Origin: Pseudovibrio japonicus
Lineage (GTDB): Bacteria; Pseudomonadota; Alphaproteobacteria; Rhizobiales; Stappiaceae
Assembly (NCBI RefSeq): GCF_014651595.1
Contig: NZ_BMXE01000002.1
Coordinates: 186,001-250,000, forward strand
Direction of reading: 5' to 3'
DNA length: 64,000 nt
Part shown: piece after piece, positions 3,051 through 42,110 of the stretch
Layout of the letters: the number at the start of each line of letters is the position of its first letter
How positions within the stretch are numbered: position 1 is the first letter of the stretch
The notes under the pieces: generated by a model
What the model was told of the DNA's origin: nothing
The model's input: the letters and a program-made list of their open reading frames with translations, nothing else
The model's database searches: none
Program-made: the position numbers and the translations under genes

Positions 3051-3126
3051 TGGTGGAGCCTAGGGGGATCGAACCCCTGACCTCTTCGCTGCCAGCGAAG
3101 CGCTCTCCCAGCTGAGCTAAGGCCCC
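3051..3126 (-). tRNA. tRNA-Ala (anticodon GGC), copy 1
   Basis: A 76-nt cloverleaf with encoded CCA at 3051-3053. The acceptor stem is GGGGCCT/AGGCTCC with the alanine-identity G3:U70 pair. The D arm is AGCTCAGCTGGGAGAGC. The anticodon stem-loop CTTCG-CTGGCAG-CGAAG gives anticodon GGC, and the T arm is AGGGGTTCGATCCCCCT. It is identical to the second copy 144 bp upstream in the transcriptional sense. Confidence 0.97.
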
Positions 3127-3269: not shown

Positions 3270-3345
3270 TGGTGGAGCCTAGGGGGATCGAACCCCTGAC
3301 CTCTTCGCTGCCAGCGAAGCGCTCTCCCAGCTGAGCTAAGGCCCC
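3270..3345 (-). tRNA. tRNA-Ala (anticodon GGC), copy 2
   Basis: Identical over all 76 nt to the copy at 3051-3126, including encoded CCA and the G3:U70 pair. The tandem arrangement suggests one transcript reading leftward through both. A duplicated minor-anticodon Ala gene probably reflects dosage. Confidence 0.97.
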
Positions 3346-37962: not shown

Positions 37963-39021
37963 ATGTCTGTTTCCACTGTGCCCCAAGAACTCTCCCAGAA
38001 CCTCGACGTGCTTGGTGTCGCCGAGCGTTGGCAATCGGAAGGTCGTAAGCTGGTACTGGCGACGGTTATCGAGACATGGGGCTCTGCGCCACGGCCCGTG
38101 GGCAGTTATCTGATCATCGACGAGAACGGCGATTTTGAAGGCTCGGTCTCCGGTGGCTGTGTGGAAGGGGCTGTAGTTGCGGAAGCCATGGACGTGCTCG
38201 AAGATGGCAAGGCGCGGAAGATCGAGTTTGGCGTTGCCGATGAGACTGCGTGGCGGGTTGGTCTTTCCTGCGGCGGGAAGATTGGCGTTTATCTGCAGCC
38301 TCTGAATGACGAGACGGATCGAAATCACATCAAGCTTCTGAACACCTCAAAAGCCACGCGGCAGCCTGCAGCACTGCTGACTAATATTGCCACCGGAGCC
38401 TCCTCTGTCATGCTGTACGCCGCAGATGCTCAGGATGCGATGCTTGAAGCGGCCTTTGAAAATGGTGTGCGCAGCGGCAAGTCCGGGGTGTTTCAGTCGA
38501 AAGACGGTGAAGAGTATTTTCTGAGCATGCAGGTGCCGGCGACGCGTATCGTGGTGGTTGGTGCCGTTCACATTTCGCAGGCGCTGGTTCCCATTGCCCA
38601 GACAGCTGGGTTCGACATCACCATCGTTGACCCGCGCACGGCGTTTGCCTCCCCAGAGCGGTTCCCTGATGTGCCGTTGCTTGCGGAATGGCCCGAGGAT
38701 GTGATGGGTCAGCTCAAGTTTGATCCGTTTACTGCAGTGGCCGTCGTCACGCATGACCCTAAGATTGATGATCTGCCGCTGATGGAGGCGTTGAGAGCAG
38801 GGTGTTTTTACGTTGGTGCTCTTGGCAGCCGCAAGACACATGCAAAACGGCGTGAGCGTTTGTTGTCCGCAGGTGTGACAGAAGAGGAGTTTGCGCGCAT
38901 CGAGGCCCCTATCGGGCTTGATATTGGCGCGGCAAACCCTGCTGAGATCGCGGTTGCCGTGCTGGCCCAGATTATCGTTGCACTGCGTGGTACCAAGGCT
39001 GAACAGAAGAAGGCGGTCTAA
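37963..39021 (+). CDS. XdhC family protein (molybdoenzyme maturation)
   Basis: 352 residues. The N-terminal XdhC/CoxI domain has ATVIETWGSAPRPVGSYLII, SVSGGCVEGAVVAEA and VGLSCGGKIGVYLQPL. The C-terminal Rossmann-like domain begins at about 195 (TRIVVVGAVHISQALVPIAQ) and ends VGALGSRKTHAKRRERL...IGLDIGAANPAEIAVAVLAQ. XdhC proteins bind and sulfurate the molybdenum cofactor for xanthine dehydrogenase-like enzymes. The downstream gene, separated by one base, is a molybdopterin-binding/MobA-like fusion. No molybdoenzyme subunits are in the window, so the client enzyme is unknown. Confidence 0.9.
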   Translation: MSVSTVPQELSQNLDVLGVAERWQSEGRKLVLATVIETWGSAPRPVGSYLIIDENGDFEGSVSGGCVEGAVVAEAMDVLEDGKARKIEFGVADETAWRVGLSCGGKIGVYLQPLNDETDRNHIKLLNTSKATRQPAALLTNIATGASSVMLYAADAQDAMLEAAFENGVRSGKSGVFQSKDGEEYFLSMQVPATRIVVVGAVHISQALVPIAQTAGFDITIVDPRTAFASPERFPDVPLLAEWPEDVMGQLKFDPFTAVAVVTHDPKIDDLPLMEALRAGCFYVGALGSRKTHAKRRERLLSAGVTEEEFARIEAPIGLDIGAANPAEIAVAVLAQIIVALRGTKAEQKKAV

Positions 39022-39022
39022 G

Positions 39023-40651
39023 GTGAAGTTTGGAAGCAAAGCGACTGAAGAGAGCGTTGGGTGTTACCTCGCCCATTCCATCAGGCACAATGGTCTTTCC
39101 CTCAGGAAGGGACATCAACTGAGCGAGGGCGACGTGAGCCAGCTGATTGCCGCTGGGTTCACCGAGGTCGTTGTTGCACAGGTTGAAGAGACTGATCTTC
39201 ATGAGGATGAAGCTGCTGCACTGCTTGCCGAGCGCGCCTGTGGGGATGCGGTATCTGTCTCCCCGCCGTTTACAGGACGGGCCAATCTTTTTGCCGCGAA
39301 GAGCGGTGTGTTGCAGGTGGATGCCGAGAAGGTGACACAAGCCAATCTGATTGATCCGGCGATTACGTTTGCGTGTTTGCCACCGTTTACGGAAGTCCGC
39401 GAAGGACGCATGCTTGCGACTGCGAAGATTATTCCGCTGGCCGTTGATCAGAAACTGGCCCAGATCGCGGCTGACAAGATTTCCGAGGCAATTTCTGTGG
39501 CGCCTTATTCCTCCAAATCAGTTGCTGTTGTTTCAACAACGCTGCCGCATTTGAAAGAAGCGACGGTTACGAAGACCCTGCGTGTGCTACGGGAGCGGCT
39601 GGAGATTGCCGACAGCACGATCTCAGCGGAGGTTCGTGTACCTCACGAGGAGGAGGCACTCACCGGAGCGCTCAGCGGGGATCAGCTTCGGAAAGCAGAC
39701 CTGATCGTTGTGTTTGGCGCCTCTGCGGTGGTTGATCAGGGCGATGTTATTCCAGCTGCCATAGCTGCGGCTGGCGGTGATGTTATTCATGTGGGTATGC
39801 CGGTTGATCCGGGGAACCTGCTGGTGCTTGGAGAGCTGGATGGAAAGCCAGTGATCGGAGCGCCGGGGTGCGCGCGCAGTCCGCAAGTGAACGGCTTTGA
39901 CTGGGTTCTGCAGCGCTTGCTTGCAGGGATTAAGGTTACAGGTACAGATATCATGTCCATGGGCGTTGGAGGGCTGCTGCAGGAGATTCATAGCCGTCCT
40001 CAGCCACGTAGTCATCCTCACCCGAAACAGGCCACCAAGACCGTTTGCAGCGGCGTGCTGCTGGCAGCGGGTAATTCCTCGCGAATGGGGGACCATAACA
40101 AGCTGCTGGCGCTTATCGACGGAAAGCCGGTGGTTCGGCACGTTGCTGAACAGGCGCTTGCCAGTGAGCTGAGCGAACTCATCGTGGTGACGGGGGCCAT
40201 GGCCTCCAAGGTGGAAAAGGCTCTCGCTGGGCTGCCTGTCCAGTTCCAACATAATCCGAAGTACGCGGAGGGTATTTCATCCTCGGTCAAACAGGGGATT
40301 GAGGCGGTCAGTGAGCAGTCGAGTGCGGCGCTTGTGCTTCTTGGGGACATGCCATTTATTTCTGCGCAGGACATCAACGCGCTGATTCAGCATCACAGCA
40401 TCGAACAGGATCAGCTGATTGGTGTTGCCACCACGCAGGGTAAACGGGGCAATCCGGTTCTCTGGAATCGGGCCTTTTTCGAGGATCTGCTTGGGTTGAG
40501 AGGCGATATTGGCGGCAAGCCGGTTATTCAGCAAAATCCTTCAGTGGTTTACACAGTGGAAGTTGGCGAATCTGCACGACGTGATTTGGATGATCCCGAA
40601 GCGCTCCGAAACGCAGGAGGCGTGCTCGGACAACACTCCCAAAAGCCATAA
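39023..40651 (+). CDS. Molybdopterin-binding / MobA-like nucleotidyltransferase fusion
   Basis: 542 residues in two parts. Residues 1 to about 335 resemble a MoeA/MoaB-type molybdopterin-binding fold: LSLRKGHQLSEGDVSQLIAA, LIVVFGASAVVDQGDVIPAA, GDVIHVGMPVDPGNLL and KPVIGAPGCARSPQVNGFDW. From about 350 it is a MocA/MobA-type NTP transferase: SGVLLAAGNSSRMGDHNKLL, HNPKYAEGISSSVKQGIE and LVLLGDMPFISAQDINAL. The whole matches the Rhizobiales molybdopterin-binding/glycosyltransferase type, probably attaching CMP (or GMP) to the cofactor. The frame is open from 38891, but GTG at 39023 fits: it follows AAGAAGG and starts two bases after the XdhC stop. Confidence 0.85.
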   Translation: MKFGSKATEESVGCYLAHSIRHNGLSLRKGHQLSEGDVSQLIAAGFTEVVVAQVEETDLHEDEAAALLAERACGDAVSVSPPFTGRANLFAAKSGVLQVDAEKVTQANLIDPAITFACLPPFTEVREGRMLATAKIIPLAVDQKLAQIAADKISEAISVAPYSSKSVAVVSTTLPHLKEATVTKTLRVLRERLEIADSTISAEVRVPHEEEALTGALSGDQLRKADLIVVFGASAVVDQGDVIPAAIAAAGGDVIHVGMPVDPGNLLVLGELDGKPVIGAPGCARSPQVNGFDWVLQRLLAGIKVTGTDIMSMGVGGLLQEIHSRPQPRSHPHPKQATKTVCSGVLLAAGNSSRMGDHNKLLALIDGKPVVRHVAEQALASELSELIVVTGAMASKVEKALAGLPVQFQHNPKYAEGISSSVKQGIEAVSEQSSAALVLLGDMPFISAQDINALIQHHSIEQDQLIGVATTQGKRGNPVLWNRAFFEDLLGLRGDIGGKPVIQQNPSVVYTVEVGESARRDLDDPEALRNAGGVLGQHSQKP

Positions 40652-40697: not shown

Positions 40698-41030
40698 CTC
40701 GGAATTCATCGGGTGGTTAATATTGGTGCATACACATGAGAATTGTTATCTGGTTGTTTTACTTGCGTAAATAAAAATCAGAATAATATTTCACCCAGAT
40801 TTTCTTGTGTAAGCATTTTTACACAGCTAAAAATATCTGGCTATTTGGAAAAGAGGGAGATAATCTTTTTCCCGTCCGGTGAATTTGTCTGCTTTAAATG
40901 CAGCAGAAAAAAATTCCGGTGATCCCATAATCAAAAATGGTTCCAGCGATCCAACGGCGAGCATGGCTCACACGCTCCTCCCGCGTGCATGTGGCTTTGA
41001 TCTATGGTTCCAAAGAACAAGGGTAGTTAA

Positions 41031-41246
41031 ATGAAAGCACCAGTGATGCCAAAAGCCGGGCAGTGCAAGTGGACTGAAGGCGACAGCGGAAGTTACACTT
41101 TCCCATGCAAAAACCGTGCTGAAAATGGCTCTTACTGCGAGTATCATCGCACGATTGTTTACGAGACACCTGAGCAGCGCAAAGCGCGTGCTGAGGAAAT
41201 GCGCGCAGCCAATGCCGCAGCTAACAAGAAACGGATTGCAGCCTAA
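41031..41246 (+). CDS. Small GcrA C-terminal-domain-like protein
   Basis: 71 residues. From residue 11 it reads QCKWTEGDSGSYTFPCKNRA, then ENGSYCEYHRTIVYETP. This lines up with the C-terminal domain of GcrA as I recall it: CKW-x2-GD-x-G, F-x-C, G-x-YC-x-YH, Y. The shared possible metal or structural residues are C12, W14, C26, C36 and H39. The rest is a charged Arg/Glu/Ala helix (47-71). The N-terminal helix-turn-helix of GcrA is missing. In GcrA this C-terminal part binds the housekeeping sigma factor, so this small protein may bind sigma without DNA contact. That function is inference. AAGGG lies before the ATG, and a terminator follows at 41323. Confidence 0.7.
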   Translation: MKAPVMPKAGQCKWTEGDSGSYTFPCKNRAENGSYCEYHRTIVYETPEQRKARAEEMRAANAAANKKRIAA

Positions 41247-41322: not shown

Positions 41323-41356
41323 AAAAGCCCCGGTCATGCCGAGGCTTTTGTTTTTT
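41323..41356 (+). terminator. Terminator behind the small GcrA-like gene
   Basis: AAAAGCC-c-CGG pairs with CCG-a-GGCTTTT (41323-41349) around TCATG, followed by GTTTTTT. Six As on the left also make it usable from the minus strand. Confidence 0.85.
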
Positions 41357-41594: not shown

Positions 41595-41621
41595 AAAAGC
41601 CTCGGCGGGGCCGAGGCTTTT
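41593..41621 (-). terminator. atp operon terminator
   Basis: AAAAGCCTCGG (41595-41605) pairs perfectly with CCGAGGCTTTT (41611-41621) around CGGGG. On the minus strand it runs into six Ts, about 80 bp behind atpC. It is bidirectional in form. Confidence 0.88.
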
Positions 41622-41702: not shown

Positions 41703-42110
41703 TCAGGACGCTTTGATAGCTTCCTGCAGCTCTGTGAGCTGGGAAAGTACCAGTCGTGCTGCCTGACGTGCATCTTCACTCTTTGCATCGGCTACATCTT
41801 CACTCGCATCTTGAATCTGCTGTGCGATGTAATCTGCATCGATATCGGCCATAGGGATCGCCTGTTCCGCCAGAACAGTCATGCCAGACGTGGAAACGTC
41901 AGCAAAACCACCCCGCACGAAGTATTCGTGCTTGGAACCATCTTCGCTGAGCGCTTTTACAACACCCGGACGCATGGTTGACAAGAACGGCGAGTGACCA
42001 GCGCCAACACCAAACTCACCTTCTGAACCAGGTACGGTTACATCGGTAACCTTAGCTGAGAGCAGAAGGCGCTCTGGAGATACCAGCTCAAACTGAAATG
42101 CTTCAGCCAT
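41703..42110 (-). CDS. atpC: ATP synthase F1 epsilon subunit
   Basis: Inhibitory and coupling subunit of the F1 central stalk. 135 residues. FQFELVSPERLLLSAKVTDV starts the beta-sandwich. GSEGEFGVGAGHSPFLSTMR is the family signature, and the C-terminal helices (ADAKSEDARQAARLVLSQL) follow. Last gene of atpHAGDC. Operon transcription ends at the hairpin at 41593-41621. Confidence 0.95.
   Translation of the reverse strand: MAEAFQFELVSPERLLLSAKVTDVTVPGSEGEFGVGAGHSPFLSTMRPGVVKALSEDGSKHEYFVRGGFADVSTSGMTVLAEQAIPMADIDADYIAQQIQDASEDVADAKSEDARQAARLVLSQLTELQEAIKAS

Follow-up and report, generated by a model that had tools for sequence, protein, structure and literature searches.

A stand-alone homologue of the GcrA sigma-interacting domain in the Stappiaceae, a possible DNA-independent regulator of transcription initiation

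In alphaproteobacteria, CcrM methylation is known to be connected to sigma-70 through GcrA, which combines a methyl-DNA reader with a sigma-binding domain, hereafter the sigma-interacting domain (SID). RbpA, the actinobacterial cofactor of sigma-A/B, is built from a short sigma-interacting domain and a basic stretch. Caulobacter crescentus has in addition a GcrA paralogue, GcrB (CC_1211), which is longer than an isolated SID and carries a region N-terminal to it, and the same is true of the GcrA homologues of phiCbK-like phages. GcrB is 44% identical to GcrA and the phage homologues are full-length, according to the corresponding papers (PMC3885167 and PMC3556154, respectively). As described in two others (PMC7403470, PMC6917491), RbpA, Crl, GcrA, and GrgA are all activators that dock on sigma region 2, with Crl acting without DNA contact, and the GcrA SID corresponds to residues 108-173. 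No GcrA homologue reduced to its SID was announced in the titles and abstract openings of the literature searched or mentioned in the cited passages, which is weak evidence of novelty given that this literature is mainly non-subscription. Such a protein, referred to here as mini-GcrA, is encoded in a 64,000-nucleotide stretch of the 4.96-Mb genome of Pseudovibrio japonicus (contig NZ_BMXE01000002.1, positions 186,001 to 250,000; hereafter the window, with positions counted from its first letter).

The mini-GcrA open reading frame (ORF) occupies 41031..41246 on the plus strand, starts with ATG and encodes 71 residues, exactly as given in a preliminary description of the window made from its letters. 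The good ribosome-binding site mentioned there is AAGGG at 41019..41023 (+), a Shine-Dalgarno sequence read 8-12 nt upstream of the ATG and kept in Pseudovibrio. The Cys/His motifs it listed (CKW-x2-GD, F-x-C, and G-x-YC-x-YH) are likewise present, as C12-K-W-T-E-G17-D18, F24-P-C26, and G33-S-Y-C36-E-Y-H39, within an SID-like domain covering residues 10-54 (41058..41192, +); its first Cys is preceded by just 11 residues. An arginine-rich stretch lies C-terminal to the SID, and the tail (41193..41243, +) ends with R-I-A-A.

Mini-GcrA is a homologue of the GcrA SID. With PF07750 and NF050816 as family references and PDB 5yix, 7ye1, and 7ye2 as SID structures, it matches the NCBIfam GcrA model with an E-value of 1.3e-5 (model positions 113-161 of 173; 25.5 bits for a cut-off of 280) and the Pfam model with an E-value of 0.0022 (positions 109-152 of 155; 18.9 bits for a cut-off of 26.9), both curated whole-protein cut-offs being missed, as is expected when one of the two GcrA domains is present. 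No other family reached E<=10 in either Pfam or NCBIfam. A sequence search of the PDB ranks GcrA first (SID chain 5yix_B, E=4.2e-5), with the following match at 0.94, and non-GcrA matches have E-values of 0.75 or worse across the PDB sequence searches. Among PHROGs, families 12262 (3.1e-6, without described function) and 14603 (0.04) were matched. Profiles were also compared: an alignment of 52 mini-GcrA proteins, i.e., the window copy, which replaces one Pseudovibrio row, and 51 of the 52 distinct sequences from 60 loci (see below), was matched by hhalign to a profile of 17 of the 28 distinct GcrA SIDs over 46 columns, with 98.9% probability and an E-value of 3.3e-17. In addition, Foldseek with the predicted mini-GcrA structure returned three chains at E<=10, all of them GcrA SIDs, 5yix_B being matched with a probability of 1.00, a TM-score of 0.71 by target length and an rmsd of 1.8. 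The match to the C-terminal domain of GcrA noted earlier is thus borne out by both profile and fold.

Mini-GcrA is also without the N-terminal helix-turn-helix (HTH), with which GcrA binds methylated GANTC DNA, as first described: a search of the 64-kb window with the HTH of the GcrA from the same genome gave no significant match (best E=0.55, at 56.5 kb). The genuine GcrA is encoded elsewhere in this genome (181 bits). When compared to C. crescentus GcrA, the protein has in common the C..C..C..H core of the SID with CKW, F..C, G..YC..H, and the following Y and R, as well as the fold; in contrast, GcrA has an HTH and a long linker, while mini-GcrA is less than half its size, ends differently and is changed or no longer conserved at half of the conserved SID positions, as detailed below.

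The gene is found in all 87 Stappiaceae genomes searched and in 7/7 genera, with E=2.2e-13 for the worst of the best matches, and GcrA (PF07750) is above cut-off in 86 of the same genomes, the exception (G061) being a 680-contig assembly. Outside the family, it was detected neither in the 285 other genomes of the order (297 sampled; the 12 family members score at least 107.0 bits and the next best 40 bits) nor in the 384 other genomes of the class (385 sampled; nothing above 47 bits apart from the genome of the window), although a divergent copy could escape these sampled searches, in which scoring was limited to the 20 or 15 leading first-look candidates of each genome. At all 29 outside loci checked (L104-L132), the GcrA HTH is present upstream of the match. 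The survey of alphaproteobacteria proposed in the preliminary description therefore returned stand-alone homologues throughout one family, rather than homologues that are always fused. A pattern scan of 84,980 species genomes yielded 60 mini-GcrA loci, from Pseudovibrio, Roseibium/Labrenzia, Stappia, Breoghania, and Hongsoonwoonella, with four (L046, L054, L057, and L074) carrying a broader label only. The protein is 67-71 residues long at all 60 (taking the nearest upstream ATG, chosen by script, as start). In one genome (G003), a TGA is the gene's own stop codon and the copy is intact, with the usual Ala-Ala end.

A mobile or phage origin was considered and rejected. Only 18 of 50,697 phage records match, all from Caulobacter phages and with E-values of at least 0.04; among the 15 matches listed, 14 bear a GcrA-like annotation and one is a hypothetical protein. 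The plasmid collection contains no match at E<=0.01, and the 28 pattern matches in viral contigs include no relative.

When 121 SID rows were placed in a tree, the 61 mini-GcrA rows formed one clade with 100/100 support, on a long branch and apart from the 60 GcrA rows. As this tree is based on 53 columns, contains long branches and has a bootstrap that is not settled (0.962), it is relied on for the split between mini-GcrA and GcrA alone; a GcrA from outside the family (L120) was for instance placed inside Stappiaceae GcrA. The comparison of residues was restricted to the 22 SID positions whose conservation reaches 90% among the 60 GcrA rows. Eleven of these are the same in the mini family, namely C12, W14, G17, F24, C26, G33, Y35, C36, H39, Y44, and R50, while the other eleven have been exchanged, lost, or are no longer conserved. 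Four positions are conserved in both groups but with different residues (L in GcrA and P7 in the mini family, I and E16, P and S34, A and V43), the second F of the GcrA F-x-F-C motif is deleted, and six positions are conserved in GcrA only (E9, P15, D18, P19, G27, and Q45), even if D18 is retained as D in 70% of the mini rows. Conversely, G10, K13, G20, Y22, P25, E31, P47, and E48 are conserved in the mini family only. Its W-x-E-G signature is found in none of 10 other SID frames, fetched from nine loci (seven from the order and two from the family itself). We read the mini family, from these residues, as a kept SID scaffold with a changed contact surface. Because mini-GcrA forms a clade of its own and has signature residues throughout the family, the suggestion that it might be a truncated paralogue, if this means a recently clipped GcrA, is not supported.

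The mini-GcrA gene is under strong purifying selection. Summed pN/pS values are 0.053 in 8 Pseudovibrio, 0.174 in 19 Roseibium-type, and 0.150 in 6 Stappia-type genomes, i.e., not those of the neutral evolution that would have spoken against a functional gene. Presence in 87/87 family genomes together with pN/pS values of 0.05-0.17 excludes chance similarity. The early statement that the ORF is not a fragment is borne out by this selection as well as by the distribution, the conserved locus, and the separate clade.

One further feature sets the family apart. The protein ends with Ala-Ala at 60/60 loci and in all 53 distinct sequences, that of the window included, although the preceding residues are variable: position -4 is basic in 50/53, but no residue exceeds 51% at any of positions -5 to -13. 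None of the 60 GcrA ORFs has this end, and it is found in 51 of 635 ORFs of at least 200 codons from the same loci, a rough estimate given that orthologues are counted repeatedly and that a simple ORF caller was used. The end is reminiscent of CtrA, a ClpXP substrate that also has a terminal Ala-Ala and that is stabilized by changing its C-terminal alanines or removing its last three residues (PMC4433202). Since the Ala-Ala end of mini-GcrA is invariant and CtrA proteolysis needs C-terminal alanines, the comparison suggests that this end is a ClpXP degron.

What could an SID without a DNA reader do? Crl shows that a protein can act on sigma region 2 without contacting DNA, so an SID that lacks the HTH need not be an inhibitor. 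We propose, as an evenly balanced prospect, that mini-GcrA is a short-lived regulator that docks on sigma or RNA polymerase independently of DNA, in principle like Crl but through an altered binding surface. In this model, the gene encodes a dedicated, Stappiaceae-specific version of the GcrA SID, in which the C/C/C/H core would hold the fold, probably with the help of a metal. The protein would dock on the RNA polymerase holoenzyme via sigma region 2 or a surface next to it. It would change initiation globally, without a specific DNA site, in the way that Crl acts with sigma-S. As its surface is apparently retuned relative to that of GcrA, its preferred target may be a different face of sigma-70 or a different sigma factor, and the arginine-rich stretch may add a non-specific contact with nucleic acid or polymerase, as in RbpA. 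With its free Ala-Ala end, mini-GcrA is a likely ClpXP substrate, whose level would therefore be set by proteolysis, and additionally by a conserved mRNA leader in Pseudovibrio and Roseibium.

The proposed likeness to Crl, the sigma-S cofactor of gammaproteobacteria, is that of a small protein which would bind sigma region 2 and leave DNA untouched; unlike GcrA, Crl is absent from the sequence and structure match lists, which does not exclude kinship. Likewise, RbpA resembles mini-GcrA in its proposed mode of action, but it was not listed by the structure searches and no sequence relation was found, which again excludes nothing. Among the three options raised in the preliminary description, a sigma modulator remains the best candidate. 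More tentatively, and at somewhat less than an even chance, the Stappiaceae may possess a second, DNA-free branch of the GcrA system, existing beside GcrA itself, encoded near the origin, subject to proteolysis, with the sigma-docking fold of GcrA kept, a re-evolved contact surface and a global, Crl-like action. If true, such a lineage-wide SID-only protein would show that the docking module works, or was re-used, without DNA reading, and the Stappiaceae would have turned a domain of a cell-cycle regulator into a global regulator that resembles Crl. The prediction is specific and cheaply testable, as it concerns a single gene for 71 residues in cultivable marine hosts.

Alternatively, mini-GcrA could be a dedicated competitor of GcrA, occupying the site of the GcrA SID on sigma-70 region 2 and thereby lowering GcrA-dependent transcription from methylated promoters. 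It is the same domain without the DNA-binding part, it coexists with a GcrA above cut-off in all but one of the genomes, and the eleven positions in common, including W14, F24, Y35, Y44, and R50, could suffice for the sigma contact. However, half of the GcrA-conserved SID positions are changed or no longer conserved, so that binding to the sigma surface used by GcrA is not a given: the mini family has other residues, conserved in turn, in place of L7, I16, P34, and A43, and lacks one F, whereas the other SID frames retain W-P and C-G in 10/10 cases and G-D-P in 6/10. Much of the GcrA type is even kept in the GcrA of phage CcrMagneto (CRWPYGDP...CGC...YC..H...AYKP), the one phage protein read in this respect, with its WPYGDP and AYKP motifs. 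Competition would be unlikely if it is the changed residues that make the sigma contact; a plain competitor is overall less likely than a docking regulator, and we regard it as unlikely. The changed residues could also mean that the SID has been retargeted, the metal-knuckle fold being kept while the partner is now an alternative sigma factor, RNA polymerase at another place, or a protein of replication initiation. This would account for the residues conserved specifically in the mini family (G10, E16, G20, Y22, P25, S34, V43, and E48), and the position of the gene is compatible with the last of these partners. Among 15 genomes considered, two of which (G012 and G044) gave no distance, four of Stappia type have dnaA about 8 kb from the gene and seven more have it at 95-204 kb (same contig, computed by hand), the distance being 125 kb (G043) or about 470 kb (G016) in two others if the contigs are assumed to be circular. 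The locus is hence origin-proximal, yet it may simply follow the neighboring pckA-xdhC-mobA block, so that closeness to dnaA would be passively inherited, and the G016 distance does not argue for it; moreover, nothing in the sequence points to a partner. Retargeting away from the GcrA partner appears distinctly unlikely.

The two remaining explanations deny a role in sigma docking altogether. Mini-GcrA might be a small zinc-knuckle protein unrelated to transcription and GcrA-like in its metal-binding scaffold only; the residues in common are indeed largely the C/C/C/H scaffold, glycines, and aromatics. But apart from GcrA, the searches described above brought up no Pfam or NCBIfam family and only PDB sequence matches of 0.75 or worse, and the pattern CKW-x-x-G...F..C...G.xYC..H....Y..R is specific beyond the metal ligands, which makes this explanation very improbable. 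As for a truncated and decaying gcrA copy, partial gcrA-like ORFs do exist: locus L175 of one Pseudovibrio has a 119-residue piece beside gcrA, and frames with an SID alone occur in other families. Their existence lends hardly any credence to decay in the case of mini-GcrA; decay is refuted by the distribution over 87/87 genomes, the uniform length of 67-71 residues, the synteny, the purifying selection, and the separate clade.

The locus is well conserved. The gene order is pckA-xdhC-mobA-mini, with matches to PckA, XdhC, and the MobA-like protein each located upstream on the same strand in 59/60 loci, and a convergent atpC is next to the gene in 48/60. In the window, xdhC (37963..39021, +; assigned by Pfam and the synteny count) is followed by an ORF for a protein with a MobA-like NTP-transferase domain (38891..40651, +, as listed, with a true start that is probably later), and atpC, encoding the epsilon subunit of ATP synthase, is at 41703..42110 on the minus strand (Pfam and synteny count). 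Because the median gap between the MobA-like match and the start of the mini-GcrA gene is 318 nt, the latter probably has its own transcript. The terminator claimed earlier holds in part: an imperfect GC hairpin followed by a T tract can be seen by eye 3' of the ORF (41324..41352), although the scan did not flag it, and the scan found a perfect hairpin of terminator type, functional in both directions by its form, in the interval that separates the gene from atpC (41595..41621). In Breoghania (L072, 10242-14516), recF-dnaN-dnaA adjoin the gene on its other side. Of note, a second DnaA-like match, 54-56% identical to the query and far from the first, was seen in seven Roseibium genomes (G034, G043, G044, G051, G053, G062, and G070), and one of them (G062) has a third (50%).

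The region upstream of the gene displays a conservation of its own. A putative leader (5' untranslated region) was delineated at 40841..41030 (+) from the identity between -190 and -20, which averages 88.5% in 8 Pseudovibrio, versus 69.5% in the sequence preceding this stretch, 69.9% in that downstream, and 69.0% at the four-fold sites. The corresponding values for 15 Roseibium are 83.8% versus 52.6%, 58.7%, and 58.1%, with a conserved sequence that differs from the Pseudovibrio leader, and among 8 Stappia the background is exceeded between -240 and -120 only. These groups were chosen by hand (8 or 11 Pseudovibrio, excluding the distant L040-L044; 12, 15, or 22 Roseibium; 8 Stappia). About 55 nt before the ATG, the leader contains the hairpin CACGC(TCCTCCC)GCGTG (40971..40987, +), which is exact in 5/8 close Pseudovibrio and whose UCCUCCC loop resembles an anti-Shine-Dalgarno sequence; the same loop is found exactly, on a different stem, at 8 Roseibium-type loci, and 22/61 sequences have TCCTCCC in the 120 nt that precede the ATG. 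Loops with an anti-Shine-Dalgarno sequence on hairpins are the feature of Cuckoo-type RNAs (CCUCCUCCC loops), to which any kinship of the leader would be tentative. At 34 Roseibium-type loci, the GGATCC...GGATG frame of the hairpin is kept with variable loops, the TCCTCCC sequence being changed in several Roseibium. RNAalifold predicts 60 pairs for the leader, but since the covariation term is only -0.26 and two-sided changes affect 3 pairs, a structured leader RNA is no more than suggested. A known Rfam leader was rejected, with no match above gathering near the gene or in 6 loci and relaxed-threshold matches far below it, and a search of the host genome for further leader copies gave nothing beyond short weak matches.

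As for transcriptional control, a putative promoter (TTGTGT, 17 nt, TAAAAA; 40805..40833, +) was recognized by eye, not being flagged by the consensus scan. It overlaps the palindrome TGTGTAA-N6-TTACACA (40806..40825), which is repeated exactly nowhere else in the genome; in several Stappia, another palindrome, CATGG-CTC-CCATG, precedes the gene. GANTC is present within 300 nt upstream in 15/61 sequences, at scattered places. The TTAA-N7-TTAA sequence, a CtrA-type motif, has full counterparts (TTAA-N6-8-TTAA) in 6/61. Four Roseibium-type loci (L062, L071, L082, and L086) have such a site at -242 to -246, a short way upstream of the promoter region, and 21 loci, without exception Roseibium-type, retain a TTAAC half site ahead of TATGC. 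These patterns do not support a control through sites for GcrA/CcrM or CtrA, but CtrA is not flatly rejected because the four sites share one place and the half site is kept in 21 loci.

Several other GcrA-related ORFs were encountered. Weaker partial SID matches are present in 91 genomes of the order; among the frames fetched, some have another N-terminal region and some are like pieces of gcrA. A 111-residue frame from another family of the order (f2; L172, genome G174, from 1946) has a GcrA-type SID (RWPIGDP, FHFCG) and no HTH, and could be, from its sequence, an independent stand-alone SID. At the Pseudovibrio locus L175 (G027:C22:121500-125500), the 119-residue frame belongs to an additional gcrA copy that lacks its N-terminal part and lies some 2 kb from the full gene, and is identical, as printed, to the C-terminal half of the latter. 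In another Pseudovibrio (G018:C3:340481-341065), the PF07750 match is in two pieces, and gcrA may be interrupted or hold an insert. Finally, a second full-length GcrA-like match (127-164 bits) is found in G004-G006, G059, G063, and G073-G086, that is, in all 14 Stappia (genus g7) and five others; these proteins are possible counterparts of GcrB. In the whole window, Rfam recognizes two tRNAs only; a tandem pair of tRNA-Ala(GGC) genes is located on the minus strand at 3051-3126 and 3270-3345.
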